This document shows, one piece after another, positions 38,712 to 46,790 of a DNA stretch of 64,000 bases (its first letter is position 1; each line of letters opens with the position of its first letter). The position numbers were made by a program, and so were the translations under genes. The notes below the pieces were generated by a model, which saw only the letters and a program-made list of their open reading frames with translations, did not search any database and was not told the DNA's origin. Source of the stretch: Bradyrhizobium murdochi (GTDB lineage Bacteria > Pseudomonadota > Alphaproteobacteria > Rhizobiales > Xanthobacteraceae); the NCBI RefSeq assembly GCF_000472965.1, contig NZ_AXAU01000001.1, forward strand, positions 372,001 through 436,000, read 5' to 3'.

Positions 38712-39992
38712 ATGGATGAGACCATGAACGAGACAGCCCGAACTCCGCCTTTTGCGCCCTTCGAATGGCTGCTGTCCGGGCGTTACCTGCGGGCGCGTCG
38801 CAAGGAAGGCTTCATTTCCGTCATCGCCGGCTTTTCGTTCCTCGGCATCATGCTCGGCGTCGCCACGCTGATCATCGTGATGGCCGTGATGAACGGTTTT
38901 CGCAAGGAACTCCTGGATAAGATCCTCGGGCTCAACGGCCACCTGTTGGTGCAGCCGCTGGAATCGCCGCTGACCGACTGGAAGGACGTCGCCGAGCGCG
39001 TCAGCCAGGTCGACGGCATCCGCCTTGCCGCGCCGGTCGTGGACGGCCAGGCGCTGGCGTCCTCGGCCTTCAACGCCGCCGGTGTACTGGTACGCGGTAT
39101 GCGCTCTGCGGACCTGAACAACCTCACCTCGATCGCCAAGAACATCAAGCAAGGCACGATGGAGGGGTTTGACGAGGGGCAGGGCGTCATCATCGGACGC
39201 CGGCTCGCCGATCAATTGTCGCTGCATGCCGGCGACACCATCACGCTGGTTGCGCCCAAGGGCGCAGTGACCCCGATGGGCACGACGCCGCGCATAAAGC
39301 CCTACAAGGTGGCGGCCGTGTTCGAGATCGGCATGTCGGAATATGACGCAAGCTTCGTGTTCATGCCGCTGCCGGAGTCGCAGGCCTATTTCAACCGCAA
39401 GGACGACGTGACTGCGATCGAGATATTCACCACCAATCCCGATCGAATCGACGCGTTCCGCAAGAGCGTGACGGAGGCAGCCGGGCGGCCGGTGTTCCTG
39501 GTCGACTGGCGGCAGCGCAACTCGACCTTCTTCAACGCGCTTCAGGTCGAGCGCAACGTGATGTTTTTGATCTTGACCATGATCGTGTTGGTTGCCGCGC
39601 TCAACATCGTCTCCGGCCTGATCATGCTGGTCAAGGACAAGGGCCAGGACATCGCCATCCTGCGCACCATGGGCGCCTCGCAGGGCTCGATCATGCGGAT
39701 CTTCCTGATCACGGGCGCTGCGATCGGTGTGGTCGGCACGCTGACCGGATTCTTCGTCGGCATGCTGATCTGCCTGAATATCGAATCGATCCGGCAGTTC
39801 CTGTCCTGGATGACCAACACCGAATTATTCTCGCCGGAACTCTATTTCCTCTCCCGGCTGCCGGCCGAGATCGATTTCGGCGAAACCACTGCGGTGGTGA
39901 TCATGGCGCTGACGCTGTCGTTCCTGGCGACGCTCTATCCGTCCTGGCGCGCCGCGCGCCTCGATCCCGTCGATGCGCTCCGGTACGAGTGA
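38712..39992 (+). CDS. lolC: Lipoprotein-releasing ABC transporter permease (LolC/LolE type)
   Basis: This 426-residue inner-membrane protein has one N-terminal transmembrane helix, a large periplasmic domain and three C-terminal helices with the FtsX-type motif ([16 protein letters not shown]). It extracts outer-membrane lipoproteins for transfer to LolA, together with LolD. Alphaproteobacteria often have one LolC/E-type permease, so the C/E distinction is not meaningful here. lolD follows eight bases later. Confidence 0.95.
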
Positions 39993-39999
39993 GGGCGAG

Positions 40000-40698
40000 A
40001 TGGCCGAGGAGGCGGAAGATGTACCCGTTATCTATCTCCACGAGATAAAACGCGAGTACAGGCAGGGCGAGGCAACGCTGACCATCCTCGACGGCGCCAA
40101 GCTTGCGCTGTGGGCGGGGCAATCGGTGGCGTTGGTGGCGCCGTCGGGGTCCGGCAAGTCGACGCTGCTGCACATCGCGGGCCTGCTCGAAAGCCCCGAT
40201 GACGGCGAGGTCTATGTCGCGGGCACGCCGACCTCGCAATTATCAGATATCGACCGCACCCAGATCCGGCGCTCCGACATCGGCTTCGTCTATCAATCGC
40301 ATCGGCTGTTGCCGGAATTCACCGCGCTTGAAAACGTCATGCTGCCGCAGATGATCCGCGGCCTCAAACGCTCCGAGACGATCAAGCGCTCGCAGGAGAT
40401 TTTGGCCTATCTCGGCCTCGGCGATCGCACCTCGCACCGACCGGCCGAACTGTCCGGTGGCGAGCAGCAGCGCGTCGCCATCGCGCGCGCGGTCGCCAAC
40501 GCGCCCCGGGCGCTACTCGCCGACGAGCCGACCGGAAATCTCGATCCACATACCGCCGATCATGTGTTCAACGCGCTGATGCAGCTCGTGAAGGCGACGC
40601 AGGTCGCGATGCTGATCGCCACCCACAACATGGAGCTCGCCGGCCGCATGGACCGGCGCGTGTCGCTGGTCGACGGCCGGGTCGTCGAACTCGAATAA
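40000..40698 (+). CDS. lolD: Lipoprotein-releasing ABC transporter ATPase
   Basis: This 232-residue ABC ATPase has Walker [10 protein letters not shown], signature [14 protein letters not shown] and Walker [13 protein letters not shown]. The ATG at 40000 is preferred; the frame is open back into lolC. It works with the permease encoded upstream. Confidence 0.96.
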
Positions 40699-40704
40699 CG
40701 GCGT

Positions 40705-40959
40705 TCAGTAAACGCCGCGCCTGCGCACCGGCCGATCCTGATAGGCGTTCGACGCGTAGGGATTGAGCACGCATTGTGCCGCGCGCCCCGAGGCGGACAT
40801 ATTACATTGTGACAGCGACGTATAACGGCACTCGTAGTAGGTGGCCGGGCCGTAGACACGCAGGCAGACCGGATAGTCGGATCCGTAGGTCTGCGCCCGA
40901 GCCGGCGCCGAAGCGGAGATCATTGCAATCGCGAGGATCGCCAAAACCGGAATGCGCAT
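40705..40959 (-). CDS. DUF3551 family secreted protein, copy 1
   Basis: The 84-residue product has a signal peptide ending ARAQ and a Cys-rich domain: YPVCLRVYGPATYYECRYTSLSQCNMSASGR (positions roughly 29-59) and a final C before LNPYA. The four spaced cysteines are typical of DUF3551. Function is unknown. It is convergent with lolD, six bases away, and is the most downstream of three tandem paralogues. Confidence 0.9.
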   Translation of the reverse strand: MRIPVLAILAIAMISASAPARAQTYGSDYPVCLRVYGPATYYECRYTSLSQCNMSASGRAAQCVLNPYASNAYQDRPVRRRGVY

Positions 40960-41065
40960 CAAAATCTCCCTTGAGATGTGCGATCGATCCGCATGTGCAG
41001 ACGGCCAGCAGACATTCGACGCGCTGCGGCGTCAAATCACGTTCGCGCGCTGCAAGGGCTCGCGC
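40960..41065. repeat. Duplicated intergenic block of the DUF3551 array, copy 1
   Basis: The motif GACGGCCAGCAGA followed by ATTCGACGCG and GGCGTCAAATCACGTTC occurs here and again at 41336-41441 with high identity. The gene and its upstream DNA have therefore been duplicated as a unit of about 370 bases. Confidence 0.7.
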
Positions 41066-41335
41066 TCAGTAGCCGTTGCGGTAGCGGTTGTAGCGGCGTG
41101 CCGCCGGTTCTTGAGATGCATGTGCGAAATACGGATTGATCTCGCATTGCGCCGGGCGGCCCGATGCCGACATGTTGCATTGAGCCAGGGAGGTATAGGC
41201 ACATTCGTAGTAGTTGATCCCCCTGTTATAAACATGCAGGCAAACCGGATAGCGGGGATCGTAAGTCTGTGCCTGCGCCGGTGCCGCTGCCGAGGCCGCT
41301 CCGACTGCCAGAATTGCCAGAGTTAGAACTCGCAT
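41066..41335 (-). CDS. DUF3551 family secreted protein, copy 2
   Basis: The 89-residue product has a signal peptide ending AQAQ, then YPVCLHVY, YYECAYTS, QCNMSASGRPAQC and an Arg/Tyr-rich tail. It is the closest relative of copy 1 (shared SLSQCNMSASGR-like core). It shares a duplicated upstream block with copy 1. Confidence 0.9.
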   Translation of the reverse strand: MRVLTLAILAVGAASAAAPAQAQTYDPRYPVCLHVYNRGINYYECAYTSLAQCNMSASGRPAQCEINPYFAHASQEPAARRYNRYRNGY

Positions 41336-41476: not shown

Positions 41477-41770
41477 TCAGTACCTGCCGTAACCGGGAGC
41501 GGGCGGCAGCGCGCGGCCGGGCAGCGGGCGATAGGCGGCGGGCGGCGGTTCGCTCTCGCCGATATAATAGGGATTGGCAATGCAGGTGAGAAAGCGTCCC
41601 GACGCGGTCGCCTGGCACTGCTCGTAGCTCGTGAACGTGCAGTAGCTCAGTGCCGGATATTCATCGCCCTGAAGGCAGAACGGATATCGGGTGCCGACCG
41701 CTTCGGCAGGCGCAGCACCGATAGCTACCAATCCGATCGCGGTCAGCACGGCTAGCATCGCTCTACGCAT
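41477..41770 (-). CDS. DUF3551 family secreted protein, copy 3 (divergent)
   Basis: The 97-residue product has a signal peptide ending AEA, then YPFCLQGDEYP, YCTFTSYEQCQATASGR and C before IANPYY, and a Pro-rich tail. It keeps the four-cysteine DUF3551 pattern but is more diverged than copies 1 and 2, and its upstream DNA does not share their repeated block. Confidence 0.88.
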   Translation of the reverse strand: MRRAMLAVLTAIGLVAIGAAPAEAVGTRYPFCLQGDEYPALSYCTFTSYEQCQATASGRFLTCIANPYYIGESEPPPAAYRPLPGRALPPAPGYGRY

Positions 41771-42069: not shown

Positions 42070-42813
42070 ATGAAGAAGGTTTTGCTTGTTACGGCCAGTC
42101 TGATCGCGCTCGGCGCGGCTGCGCCGGCTGTTGCTGCTGATCTCGCTGCGCGCCCTTACACCAAGGCGCCCCCGATGGTCGCTGCTGTCTATGATTGGAC
42201 CGGATTCTACATCGGTGCGAACGGCGGTTGGGGTTCGAGCCGCAACGAGTGGGATGCGGTTCCGCCTTCTGGTCTCATCGGTCCCGAGGGCTCCCATGAT
42301 GCGACTGGCGGAACGGTCGGTGGCCAGGTCGGCTATCGCTGGCAGGCTGGCACCTGGGTGTTCGGCGTTGAAGCCCAGGGCAACTGGGCCGACTTCTCGG
42401 GCAGCAACGTGAGCCAGGTGTTCGCTACTCGCAACCACACGAACGTCGATGCGTTCGGCCTGTTCACCGGTCAGGTTGGTTATGCCGTCAACAACGTCCT
42501 GCTCTACGTCAAGGGCGGTGCTGCGGTGACCTCGAACGAGTATCGCATCTCCAACCTCGCAGGCGCGACCATTGGCGTTACCGGCGACGACACCCGCTGG
42601 GGCGGCACGATCGGCGCCGGCCTCGAATACGCCTTCGCGCCGAACTGGTCGATTGGCGTCGAGTACAATCACCTGTTCATGCAGGACCGTACCTACACCT
42701 TCACCGCGCCGGGCGGCGGCTTCGTCGGCACCGACCGTATCAGTCAGGACGTTGATCTCGTCACCGCCCGCCTGAACTACAAGTTCGGCGCTCCGGGCGT
42801 CGCGAGGTACTGA
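42070..42813 (+). CDS. Outer-membrane beta-barrel protein (Omp25/Omp31 family)
   Basis: This 247-residue protein has a signal peptide ending VAA and then ADLAARPYTKAPP, the characteristic start of rhizobial Omp25/31-like porins. It continues with eight-stranded-barrel features (WTGFYIGANGGWG, GGQVGYRWQ, GAGLEYAFAPNWSIGVEYNH) and ends LNYKFG. It is probably highly expressed: it has a long A/T-rich upstream region and its own terminator. It anchors the envelope; it is not expected to have enzymatic activity. Confidence 0.93.
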   Translation: MKKVLLVTASLIALGAAAPAVAADLAARPYTKAPPMVAAVYDWTGFYIGANGGWGSSRNEWDAVPPSGLIGPEGSHDATGGTVGGQVGYRWQAGTWVFGVEAQGNWADFSGSNVSQVFATRNHTNVDAFGLFTGQVGYAVNNVLLYVKGGAAVTSNEYRISNLAGATIGVTGDDTRWGGTIGAGLEYAFAPNWSIGVEYNHLFMQDRTYTFTAPGGGFVGTDRISQDVDLVTARLNYKFGAPGVARY

Positions 42814-42837
42814 TCTCGCACTCGCTGCGAAACAACG

Positions 42838-42867
42838 AAGCCCCGGGGCGCTGTCCCGGGGCTTTTT
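42838..42867 (+). terminator. Intrinsic terminator of the outer-membrane protein gene
   Basis: AGCCCCGGG and CCCGGGGCT form a 9-bp GC stem with a 7-base loop, followed by a run of T residues (42863-42867). It lies 26 bases after the stop codon, the classic position. Confidence 0.9.
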
Positions 42868-42940
42868 GTTGCTGGCGGCTGGCCGGTTAACCAAACCGAA
42901 ATGGTCGTAAGACGCTCTGTGAGACGGGTCTTGACTCTGA

Positions 42941-42973
42941 GAACAAAAAAGGAACAATGTTCCTCATATGTTC
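42941..42973. promoter_or_regulatory. Two LexA-type SOS boxes upstream of a micro-ORF
   Basis: GAAC-N7-GAAC lies at 42941-42955 and GTTC-N7-GTTC at 42959-42973. GTTCN7GTTC is the established LexA box of Alphaproteobacteria; the first site is the same motif on the opposite strand. The two sites are three bases apart, 22 bases before the start of the 32-codon gene. One such site is expected by chance about once or twice in a window of this size, but two next to each other in an intergenic region are unlikely to be accidental. Confidence 0.7.
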
Positions 42974-42994
42974 TTTGACCGTGGGAGTCGGATC

Positions 42995-43093
42995 ATGTTG
43001 CGGATGTTCGTGGAAGAGGCGGCAGCGCTGGCGTCGATTACGCTGTTTGTCGGGATGATCGCGGTGTGGGCGCAGGTGATACCGCAGCTTTGA
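42995..43093 (+). CDS. 32-residue single-pass membrane protein, predicted SOS-induced
   Basis: The ATG at 42995 follows GGGAG (42983-42987) at good spacing. An in-frame ATG at 42968 lies inside the LexA box and is unlikely. The product starts MLRMFVEEAAALAS, continues with a hydrophobic helix of about 18 residues (ITLFVGMIAVWA) and ends QVIPQL. The size, one membrane helix and SOS boxes recall SidA, the 29-residue LexA-controlled division inhibitor of Caulobacter, but homology is not established. The gene lies between the porin terminator and dnaE. Coding status is inferred from the start signals and the clean topology. Confidence 0.65.
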   Translation: MLRMFVEEAAALASITLFVGMIAVWAQVIPQL

Positions 43094-43280
43094 GGCGCGG
43101 CGGAGACCCGGCCCGATTCGGCTTGCGGGCTGGGCTGGGGAAAAGCCGGATGGCGGGAGCGCAAGCGGCGTTCCGCGTGGACTCCGTCCGGCCGAGGCAT
43201 CACCATTGCGGCAGCGAGTCGGCGCTCCCTCGGTCGCCGATGATCGCTCCCATCATGATGCGAGAGCCCGTTAAGCGACC

Positions 43281-46200
43281 ATGTCCAGTGCCGGATTCGT
43301 TCATCTCCACGTTCATTCGGCCTATTCGCTGCTGAAGGGCTCGATCAAGATCGCCAAACTCGGCGAACTCGCGAAAGCCGACCGCCAGCCCGCGCTGGCG
43401 CTGACCGACACCGACAACATGTTCGGAGCGCTGGAATTCTCCGACAAGATGGCCGGCTACGGCATCCAGCCGATCGTCGGCTGCGAACTCGCCGTCGATT
43501 TTGGCGACCAGGATCCCAACGCGCGCAATTCGCTGGCCGCCACGCCGTCGCGAATCGTACTGCTGGCGGCGCGCGAGCGCGGTTACCGCAGCTTGATGCG
43601 GCTGAACTCGCGGGCGTTCTTGGAAACGCCGGTCCATCAATCCCCGCACATCAAGCTCGAATGGCTGGAGGGCGATGCCGAGGATTTGATCGCGCTGACC
43701 GGCGGCCCCGATGGCCCGATTTCGCTGGCGCTCGACGCCGATCACACGGCGCTTGCAGCCGCGCGTATCGACCGGCTGGCGAGCCTGTTCGGCGACCGCC
43801 TCTATGTCGAATTGCAGCGTCACGGCGTCGACAAGGAGCGTCGCGTCGAGGCCGGCCTGATCGATCTCGCTTACGCCAAGGGCCTGCCGCTGGTTGCGAC
43901 CAACGAGCCATATTTCGCGTCGAACGACGATTATGAAGCCCATGACGCGCTGTTGTGCATCGCCGGCGGCAAGCTGATCGCGGAGACCGACCGCGAGCAG
44001 CTTACCCCCGACCATCGCTTCAAGACCCGCGCCGAAATGGCGGTGCTGTTTGCCGACATTCCGGAAGCGCTGGCCTCCACGATCGAGATCGCCGAGCGTT
44101 GCTCGTTCCGGCCAAAGACGAGAAAACCGATCCTGCCGCGTTTCACCGTCGGTGCCGATTCGGGCTCCGACGCGGCAACCGAAGAAGCCGCGGAGCTGAA
44201 GCGTCAGGCCGAGGCGGGGCTCGCACGGCGTCTCCAGGTTCATGGCCTGTCGCCCGGCGCGACGGAAGAGGAATACCAGAAGCGTCTCGCCTTCGAGATC
44301 GACGTCATCAACCGCATGAACTATGCGGGCTACTTTCTGATCGTCTCGGACTTCATCAAATGGGCCAAGGCCCACGACATTCCGGTCGGTCCGGGCCGCG
44401 GCTCCGGCGCCGGCTCGCTGGTCGCCTACGCGCTCACCATCACCGACCTCGATCCGATTCGCTTTGGGCTGCTGTTCGAGCGCTTCCTCAACCCCGAACG
44501 CGTCTCGATGCCGGACTTCGACATCGACTTCTGCCAGGACCGCCGCGGCGAGGTGATCGACTACGTGCAGCAGCGCTATGGCCGCGATCAGGTGGCGCAG
44601 ATCATCACCTTTGGAACGTTGCAGGCGCGCGGCGTGCTACGCGACGTCGGCCGCGTGCTGCAGATGCCCTACGGCCAGGTCGACAAGCTGACAAAACTGG
44701 TGCCGCAGAATCCCGCCGCGCCGGTGACGCTGGCGCAGGCGATCGAGGGTGAACCCAAGCTGCAGGCGTTCCGCGACGAGGACCCGGTGGTCGCGCGCGC
44801 CTTTGACATCGCCCAGCGCCTCGAAGGACTGACGCGCCACGCCTCGACCCACGCTGCCGGCATCGTGATCGGCGACCGACCTTTAAGCGAACTGGTGCCG
44901 CTCTATCGCGATCCCAAATCCGACATGCCGGTGACCCAGTTCAACATGAAATGGGTCGAGCCGGCCGGGCTTGTGAAGTTCGACTTCCTCGGCCTGAAGA
45001 CGCTGACCGTGCTCGACGTCGCGGTAAAACTGCTCAAACAGCGCAACATCCATGTCGACCTGGCGACGCTGCCGATCGACGATGCGCCGAGTTACCAGAT
45101 GCTGGCGCGGGGCGATGTGGTCGGCGTGTTCCAGGTGGAAAGCCAGGGCATGCGGCGGGCGCTGATCGACATGCGCCCCGACCGGTTCGAGGACATCATC
45201 GCGCTGGTGGCGCTCTATCGCCCAGGTCCGATGGCCAACATCCCGACCTATTGCGCGCGCAAGCACGGCGACGAGGAGCCGGAATATCTGCATCCGATCC
45301 TGGAGCCGATCCTGAAAGAGACGTTCGGCGTCATCATCTACCAGGAACAGGTGATGCAGATCGCGCAGGTGATGGCCGGCTATTCGCTCGGCGACGCCGA
45401 CCTGTTGCGCCGCGCGATGGGCAAGAAGATCCGCGCCGAGATGGAGAAGCAGCGCGCGATCTTCGTCGCCGGCGCGGTCAAGAACGGCGTGCCGAAGGGG
45501 CAGGCGGACACGATCTTCGAACTGCTCGCCAAATTCGCCGATTACGGCTTCAACAAGAGCCACGCCGCGGCTTACGCGCTGGTGTCCTACCACACCGCCT
45601 ACATGAAGGCGCATTACCCGGTGGAGTTCTTGGCGGCGTCGATGACGCTCGAACTCAACAACACCGACAAGCTCTCGGAATTTCGCGCCGAGGCGCAGCG
45701 GCTCGGCATCAAGGTCGAGGCACCGAACATCAACCGCTCGGGCGCCACCTTCGAGGTCGGCGAGAAAACCATCTACTACGCGCTGGCGGCGCTGAAGGGT
45801 GTCGGTTTGCAGGCGGTCGAGCAGATCGTGGAGGAGCGCAAGAAGGGCGCCTTCACCTCGCTTGCGGACTTCGCCGCCCGCGTCAATCCGCGCGCGATCA
45901 ACAAGCGCATCATCGAAAGCCTCGCCGCGGCCGGCGCATTCGATACGCTGGAGTCGAACCGCGCCCGTGTCTTTGCCGGGGCGGACGCGATTCTCGCCGC
46001 CTGTCAGCGCAGCCACGAGGCGGCGACGATCGGCCAGAACGACATGTTCGGCAATGCTGCCGACGCGCCGACCATCATGCTGCCGCAGATCGAGCCCTGG
46101 TTGCCGGCCGAAAAACTCCGCCGCGAATACGATGCCGTCGGCTTTTTCCTGTCCGGCCATCCGCTCGACGACTACGCCGCCGTGTTGAAGCGGCTGCGGG

Positions 46201-46790
46201 TTCAGTCCTGGGCGGAATTCTCGCGTGCCGTGAAGACCGGCGCGACCGCGGGCAGGGTTGCGGCGACCGTGGTGTCGCGCATGGAGCGCCGCACCAAGAC
46301 TGGCAACAAGATGGGCATCATGGGCCTGTCGGACCCGACCGGACATTTCGAGGCCGTGCTGTTTTCCGAGGGCCTGGCGCAATACCGCGACGTGCTGGAG
46401 CCGGGGGCGGCCGTATTGCTGCAACTCGGCGCCGAGTTGCAGGGCGAAGACGTGCGCGCGCGGGTGCTGCACGCCGAGCCGCTGGATGACGCCGCGGCCA
46501 AAACCCAGAAGGGCTTGCGGATCTTCGTTCGCGACACCAAGCCGCTGGATTCGATTGCGCGACGGCTCAACATGCCGGAAGCATCGGCGCAAAACGGTTC
46601 GGCCAAGGGCCTGCCGGCGAAGCCTGCGCCCGCGCCATCGGGCGGCGCCGATGGCGACGTCTCGCTTGTCATCATGCTCGATCTGCAGACCGAGGTGGAG
46701 ATGAAGCTGCCGGGCCGCTTCAAGGTCTCGCCGCAGATCGCCGGCGCGATCAAGGCGGTTGCGGGCGTGGTTGATGTGCAGACACTATAA
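43281..46790 (+). CDS. dnaE: DNA polymerase III subunit alpha
   Basis: This replicative polymerase, 1169 residues, has the N-terminal PHP domain (HLHVHSAYSLLKGS), the polymerase active-site acid motif SMPDFDIDFCQDRRGE, the GRGSGAGSLVAYAL region, FADYGFNKSHAAAYA, and a C-terminal OB-fold with a late LPGRFKVSPQ segment. The length and PHP region mark it as the replicative DnaE1, not the SOS-induced DnaE2 of the imu cassette. It has its own 187-base upstream gap after the micro-ORF. Confidence 0.97.
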   Translation: MSSAGFVHLHVHSAYSLLKGSIKIAKLGELAKADRQPALALTDTDNMFGALEFSDKMAGYGIQPIVGCELAVDFGDQDPNARNSLAATPSRIVLLAARERGYRSLMRLNSRAFLETPVHQSPHIKLEWLEGDAEDLIALTGGPDGPISLALDADHTALAAARIDRLASLFGDRLYVELQRHGVDKERRVEAGLIDLAYAKGLPLVATNEPYFASNDDYEAHDALLCIAGGKLIAETDREQLTPDHRFKTRAEMAVLFADIPEALASTIEIAERCSFRPKTRKPILPRFTVGADSGSDAATEEAAELKRQAEAGLARRLQVHGLSPGATEEEYQKRLAFEIDVINRMNYAGYFLIVSDFIKWAKAHDIPVGPGRGSGAGSLVAYALTITDLDPIRFGLLFERFLNPERVSMPDFDIDFCQDRRGEVIDYVQQRYGRDQVAQIITFGTLQARGVLRDVGRVLQMPYGQVDKLTKLVPQNPAAPVTLAQAIEGEPKLQAFRDEDPVVARAFDIAQRLEGLTRHASTHAAGIVIGDRPLSELVPLYRDPKSDMPVTQFNMKWVEPAGLVKFDFLGLKTLTVLDVAVKLLKQRNIHVDLATLPIDDAPSYQMLARGDVVGVFQVESQGMRRALIDMRPDRFEDIIALVALYRPGPMANIPTYCARKHGDEEPEYLHPILEPILKETFGVIIYQEQVMQIAQVMAGYSLGDADLLRRAMGKKIRAEMEKQRAIFVAGAVKNGVPKGQADTIFELLAKFADYGFNKSHAAAYALVSYHTAYMKAHYPVEFLAASMTLELNNTDKLSEFRAEAQRLGIKVEAPNINRSGATFEVGEKTIYYALAALKGVGLQAVEQIVEERKKGAFTSLADFAARVNPRAINKRIIESLAAAGAFDTLESNRARVFAGADAILAACQRSHEAATIGQNDMFGNAADAPTIMLPQIEPWLPAEKLRREYDAVGFFLSGHPLDDYAAVLKRLRVQSWAEFSRAVKTGATAGRVAATVVSRMERRTKTGNKMGIMGLSDPTGHFEAVLFSEGLAQYRDVLEPGAAVLLQLGAELQGEDVRARVLHAEPLDDAAAKTQKGLRIFVRDTKPLDSIARRLNMPEASAQNGSAKGLPAKPAPAPSGGADGDVSLVIMLDLQTEVEMKLPGRFKVSPQIAGAIKAVAGVVDVQTL

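Follow-up and report, generated by a model that had tools for sequence, protein, structure and literature searches.

A conserved SidA-like micro-protein gene behind facing LexA-type boxes at the sidA locus upstream of dnaE in Bradyrhizobium

The window, i.e., the whole 64,000-nucleotide stretch of Bradyrhizobium murdochi DNA analysed here, contains a gene for a SidA-like micro-protein (MLRMFVEEAAALASITLFVGMIAVWAQVIPQL; 32 codons plus stop) at 42995..43093 on the forward strand. Its frame starts with the ATG at 42995, its stop codon ends at 43093, and 187 bases separate it from dnaE (43281..46790, forward strand), which encodes the DNA polymerase III alpha subunit (NF004226, 1518.6 bits, cut-off 1002) and serves as syntenic anchor. 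A lolD-like ABC transporter gene (39973..40698, forward strand; TIGR02211, 246.7 bits, under the cut-off of 307.75) represents the usual upstream neighbour in relatives. A terminator-like hairpin (42837..42865, forward strand) lies 3' of the upstream outer-membrane protein gene; since the scan of 42700-43400 reported no terminator-like site between micro-gene and dnaE, read-through from the former into the latter is possible. Encoded on the reverse strand of the window are three small proteins in tandem (40705-40962, 41066-41335 and 41477-41770), similar to one another and each with a signal-like start and paired cysteines; one of them was scanned against NCBIfam and gave no match.

Two exact LexA-type boxes precede the micro-gene: (i) box 1 (GAACAAAAAAGGAAC, 42941-42955; reverse strand, where it reads GTTCCTTTTTTGTTC) and (ii) box 2 (GTTCCTCATATGTTC, 42959-42973, forward strand), which face each other across three bases (AAT). 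A putative ribosome-binding site (GGGAG, 42983-42987, forward strand) was read from the sequence downstream of them. The succession of boxes three bases apart, GGGAG, ATG and 32-codon frame, as described in the earlier note, is hence confirmed for 42941-43093. A longer, 41-residue reading that starts with the in-frame ATG at 42968 was not adopted, since this codon is part of box 2. Promoter pattern search of 42700-43400 yielded TTGACT-N16-AACAAT (42931-42958) as the sole promoter-like pair (0.1 expected), consisting of a -35-like hexamer (TTGACT, 42931..42936, forward strand) and a -10-like hexamer (AACAAT, 42953..42958, forward strand) that overlaps both the end of box 1 and the spacer between the boxes. 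Thus, box 1 lies over the spacer of the promoter-like pair and the start of its -10 hexamer, and box 2 lies over the probable transcription start, the position of which we infer.

Taken singly, one exact box means little, being no commoner than chance: GTTCN7GTTC, the LexA motif of Caulobacter according to an excerpt of PMC12700426, occurs three times in the window (1.67 expected) and 210 times in the genome, compared to 223 occurrences of the reversed control pattern. The facing pair of four half-sites is found once in the window's genome, and its reversed control not at all. At up to three mismatches, a facing pair within the window alone is not significant (match in 28 of 100 shuffles), so that the weight of the pair derives from its exact match and its conservation. 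Chance is rejected for the pair and the locus, but not for single boxes.

With the stricter motif GTTCN5(A/T)TGTTC, 28 sites were retrieved genome-wide as compared to 18 for the control. Nine of the frames beside these sites were picked by eye and scanned as 110-residue starts, for which reason most scores remain under the full-length cut-offs. Four match uvrA, ssb, recA and DNA polymerase IV (dinB), and three match a radical-SAM family, YifB and a putative DNA-repair family; the remaining two gave one weak ClpS match and no match, respectively. An exact box is also located about 120 bases upstream of lexA. The micro-gene shares this box type with the core SOS genes recA, uvrA, ssb, dinB and lexA of the same genome, and LexA binding and induction at its promoter are strongly suggested by these sequence patterns.

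Conservation of frame and boxes in relatives, on which the earlier note had staked its proposal, was found for both in 60 of 60 genomes of the same genus; plain protein search against these and 40 other genomes detected the 32-codon frame in only two of the latter. All 60 copies comprise 32 residues and represent 31 distinct proteins. The pN/pS value of the micro-gene across these copies is 0.15, as opposed to 1.55 and 5.36 for the other forward frames, and third positions account for 18189 of the 25478 pairwise differences. One of the three reverse frames also displays a low value (0.29), which is probably a shadow of the gene, since third positions coincide. Both boxes are exactly kept in all 60 copies, the spacer between them being AAT in 53 and ATT in 7, and TTGAC starts 9-11 bases ahead of box 1 in 59 copies; the remaining copy is truncated at its contig end. 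In each of the 36 same-genus genomes searched, the four-half-site operator is present once, always at the micro-gene. Only one of 24 other genomes contains it: in a member of another family of the order (G080), it is located about 270 bases upstream of dnaE. At this locus (L453, G080:C1:1050900-1052500), the operator is followed by a hydrophobic frame of 24 residues (MIVLKESCALLVIALLVVSVGIIA) that, by eye, hardly resembles the window protein.

AlphaFold2 (single sequence) predicts the micro-protein as a single helix comprising residues 2-28 (mean pLDDT 95). Its hydropathy maximum (2.07) equals nearly that of a SidA (2.06), and the sequence strongly suggests a location in the inner membrane. 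Among the polar and aromatic positions, F18 and W25 are invariant in the order alignment. Searches of Pfam, NCBIfam and PDB with the window protein or its relatives returned nothing useful. A Pfam match to Tubulin_3 (E 0.014, under cut-off) was ignored, the query having been joined artificially, as was an NCBIfam match of one class protein (E 0.23).

Beyond the genus, a profile of ten sequences (A1) was used to search 397 genomes of the order (E up to 0.01), resulting in matches in 85 genomes (87 loci). At 66 of the 87 loci, an exact box is present at most 160 bases upstream together with dnaE in the adjoining sequence (wrong spacings, 0-2 of 87); 14 loci have dnaE without exact box, two a box without dnaE, and five neither. 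This co-occurrence represents an independent test, since the protein search knew neither boxes nor dnaE, and it extends the boxed relatives sought by the earlier note across the order. The five loci with neither box nor dnaE (L160, L162, L170, L171 and L175) are probably false matches. In 12 of the 14 dnaE-linked loci without exact box, a box with one mismatch occurs within 160 bases (wrong spacings, 0-7). In one family (f44), the box at about -54 has decayed to GAACN7ATAC in all 11 dnaE-linked loci (L132, L135, L141, L145-L151 and L156), which may indicate weaker LexA control or a different box preference. Two loci of this family were counted as having an exact box, located about 150 bases upstream; as such distant boxes may be due to chance, a stricter count is 64 of 87. 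Of the two boxed loci without dnaE nearby, L138 is truncated by the end of its contig and L136 is not. At L136 (G120:C5), a lolD-like gene precedes the boxed micro-gene and dnaE is located on another contig, so either the gene pair is split or the assembly is wrong.

Anchoring on dnaE instead, 30 order loci with the DnaE most similar to that of the window (an uneven sample of 99 found, window included) displayed an exact box within 900 bases in 22 cases (control patterns, 0-3) and a hydrophobic frame of 24-50 codons behind the box in 19. Across the class, the examination covered 90 of 161 dnaE loci, the majority of them from the upper part of the score range. Besides the window, 20 of 89 have an exact box upstream of dnaE (control patterns, 0-5), 15 of these with a hydrophobic micro-frame behind it; most class loci examined are without exact box at this place. 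Class-wide profile search matched in 34 of 385 genomes (E up to 0.1). Among the 30 resulting loci examined are those of the window's genome and of G021, and five others adjoin dnaE (L178, L180, L181, L184 and L188), an exact box being present in four; the remaining loci look like noise.

Genomes of Caulobacteraceae were reached via PopZ (80 loci, 24 chosen), and dnaE was matched in 23 of the 24. In all 23, dnaE is immediately preceded by a SidA-like frame of the same orientation, at a distance of 27-74 bases as judged from alignments, e.g., a 29-residue frame in Caulobacter vibrioides OR37 (L388). An exact box within 1400 bases was found in 11 of the 23 loci, and 12 further loci, some from the same genomes, contain repeated, mostly imperfect boxes. 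Nine of the ten distinct SidA-like variants were scanned, trimmed to an inner start codon where longer, and all nine match the NCBIfam model NF033228 ("cell division inhibitor SidA"), one of them at 72.7 bits (cut-off 35). The same model matched in 4 of 14 control genomes including Caulobacter vibrioides (over cut-off in one) and exceeded the cut-off in 1 of 385 class genomes. The designations in the literature point to the same gene order: Caulobacter dnaE is CC1926 in an excerpt of PMC1839093 and sidA is CCNA_02004 in one of PMC10769358; recN, being both CC1983 and CCNA_02062, reveals a numbering offset of 79, which would place sidA near CC1925, in rough fit with dnaE. No report of SidA relatives outside Caulobacteraceae was found in the literature searched, which did not cover the founding SidA paper. 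Two supposed SidA papers (PMC9638019 and PMC10811719) were discarded, since the matching passages refer to the Holm-Sidak or Sidak test.

The SidA-like reading, originally made from size and boxes, gains support from this shared position: like the SidA gene of Caulobacter (NF033228, div_inhib_SidA), the window gene is the immediate upstream neighbour of dnaE, in the same orientation. It differs in its larger gap to dnaE (187 bases vs. about 27-74 in Caulobacteraceae) and in its operator, which is a tight facing pair in the window as compared to single or repeated same-way boxes, some of them imperfect, at Caulobacter sidA.

The sequence comparison with SidA, proposed in the earlier note as a check, yields a suggestive but modest signal at the level of profiles, weak under the stricter shuffles, and no match at that of the curated model. 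With hhalign, the order family aligned to SidA ungapped (E 3.6e-5, probability 71%) and A1 did so with E 9.4e-5 (probability 59%), the ungapped match covering 25-26 columns. NF033228, on the other hand, matched none of the ten A1 members (E up to 1), nor the window protein (E up to 10, HMMER filters on), nor anything in the window's genome (E up to 0.1), and the best ungapped identity to a SidA is 9 of 29 (next register, 7). Scored against the order profile, eight of nine SidA variants were equalled by only 0-3 of 2000 full shuffles and the ninth by 44; shuffles of the hydrophobic letters only reached the variants' score in 3-97 of 2000. In the reverse test, the window protein was equalled by 1 and 26 of 2000 shuffles; two of six order members did not stand out from shuffles (378 and 831 of 2000), and another stood out weakly (74). 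Intermediate in look are two proteins of family f115 (L444 and L448), which score under the NF033228 cut-off and have boxes ahead. In sum of features, the window gene shares with SidA the place upstream of dnaE, LexA-type boxes, a length of about 30 residues and one predicted helix. Judged by position, operator, size and predicted topology, it is the counterpart of sidA at this locus, and homology with SidA is probable. A "SidA-like protein at the SidA locus" is the supported designation; that it is SidA is not proven, since the curated SidA model does not capture the protein.

We consider it likely that the window contains a LexA-repressed SOS micro-protein gene at the sidA locus, the product of which blocks septation via an inactive FtsW/FtsI/FtsN complex. 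Gene, operator, conservation and synteny with SidA are established at the sequence level; division inhibition through FtsW is assigned with moderate confidence, by analogy with the mode of action of SidA on the FtsW/FtsI/FtsN complex as outlined in part of PMC4211646. In the undamaged cell, LexA on the two facing boxes would cover the promoter. Upon DNA damage, RecA-driven cleavage of LexA would free it, and the 32-residue protein would be formed and insert its one helix into the inner membrane. There it may bind FtsW (perhaps FtsN) and, in analogy to SidA, keep the FtsW/FtsI/FtsN complex inactive, which would delay constriction of the assembled division ring until completion of repair. With the double operator, repression may be tight and the response sharp, properties that would fit a division inhibitor. 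Another small membrane division inhibitor of Caulobacter, DidA, is likewise induced by DNA damage and directed at the same late complex, but differs from the window protein in its 71 residues, its SOS-independent, DriD-driven formation and its binding to FtsN (excerpt of PMC4211646). SOS-induced division inhibitors are also described in passages of PMC13396833 and PMC6851548, namely YneA of Bacillus, acting on FtsW, and SosA of Staphylococcus. Unlike the window protein, both are Firmicute proteins.

TisB of E. coli is an SOS-controlled single-helix peptide that acts on the membrane and is subject to antisense-RNA control. DinQ of E. coli, which belongs to the SOS regulon and is a toxic inner-membrane peptide with a single transmembrane segment, resembles the window protein in its single helix and, according to part of PMC3567139, also acts on the membrane under antisense-RNA control. 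The window protein belongs to the same size class, with one predicted hydrophobic helix and an SOS-type promoter. That its target is likewise the inner membrane as such (depolarisation, dormancy) rather than the divisome is nevertheless unlikely, as its locus is that of a divisome inhibitor, SidA, and the invariant F18 and W25 would suggest a specific partner.

Similarly doubtful is that unrelated micro-proteins arose or were replaced repeatedly behind an old LexA-controlled promoter upstream of dnaE, the window gene then sharing its place and promoter with SidA but neither ancestry nor target. The faint sequence signal between the window family and SidA would agree with such repeated origin, as would the dissimilar 24-residue frame behind the four-half-site operator of G080. 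The ungapped profile match over 25-26 columns, the f115 intermediates and the common size and topology argue for relatedness instead.

A leader peptide or upstream frame tuning dnaE, with SOS induction of dnaE as its purpose, is very improbable. While dnaE follows next on the same strand with no terminator-like site reported in between, the distance from micro-gene to dnaE differs between loci, the protein sequence itself is conserved according to its pN/pS value, and the Caulobacteraceae gene at the equivalent place is the SidA inhibitor; co-transcription with dnaE would in any case be compatible with the SidA-like reading. A spurious frame behind random box matches is practically out of the question, for even though single exact boxes do not exceed the chance level in this genome, frame and both boxes are kept in 60 of 60 genomes and wrong-spacing controls are low.

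The locus bears on how division is restrained at times of DNA damage in alphaproteobacteria other than Caulobacter. The present comparison reveals that LexA-controlled micro-protein genes at the lolD-dnaE locus form a wider set, SidA being the one that has been studied. On balance, though with somewhat more reserve than the SidA-like reading of the window gene, we favour the view that the LexA-controlled micro-protein between lolD and dnaE represents an ancestral alphaproteobacterial SOS division checkpoint rather than a Caulobacter invention, one that was missed on account of its about 30 codons and its divergence beyond the SidA model; the window would then represent a Rhizobiales-type branch with a doubled facing operator. 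The two failed reverse shuffle tests and the many class loci without box slightly lower the odds of this view. If true, the division brake would be older and more widespread than thought. With both locus and operator conserved, candidate genes can be named in many species simultaneously, and the combination of position and operator can detect micro-protein orthologues that escape the sequence model (20 of 89 class loci vs. 1 of 385 genomes).

Other LexA-type boxes in the window's genome precede genes of separate interest. Two related proteins starting MSSSSQPKSEENDELEAAVDQAI and MSSVSQPNEQDDGLEAAVDQAI (L091, G000:C1 near 32685; L112, G000:C30 near 25854) are encoded about 47 bases from such a box and possibly represent an SOS gene family without known function. 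A ClpS-like adapter (L114, G000:C35 near 25431; weak match, E 2e-7) starts 46 bases from the box GTTCTCTTTTTGTTC and is a candidate for an SOS-controlled proteolysis adapter. Boxes of this type are also located ahead of genes for a PA0069-type radical-SAM protein (L098), a YifB-type ATPase (L117) and a TIGR03915-type putative DNA-repair protein (L118).
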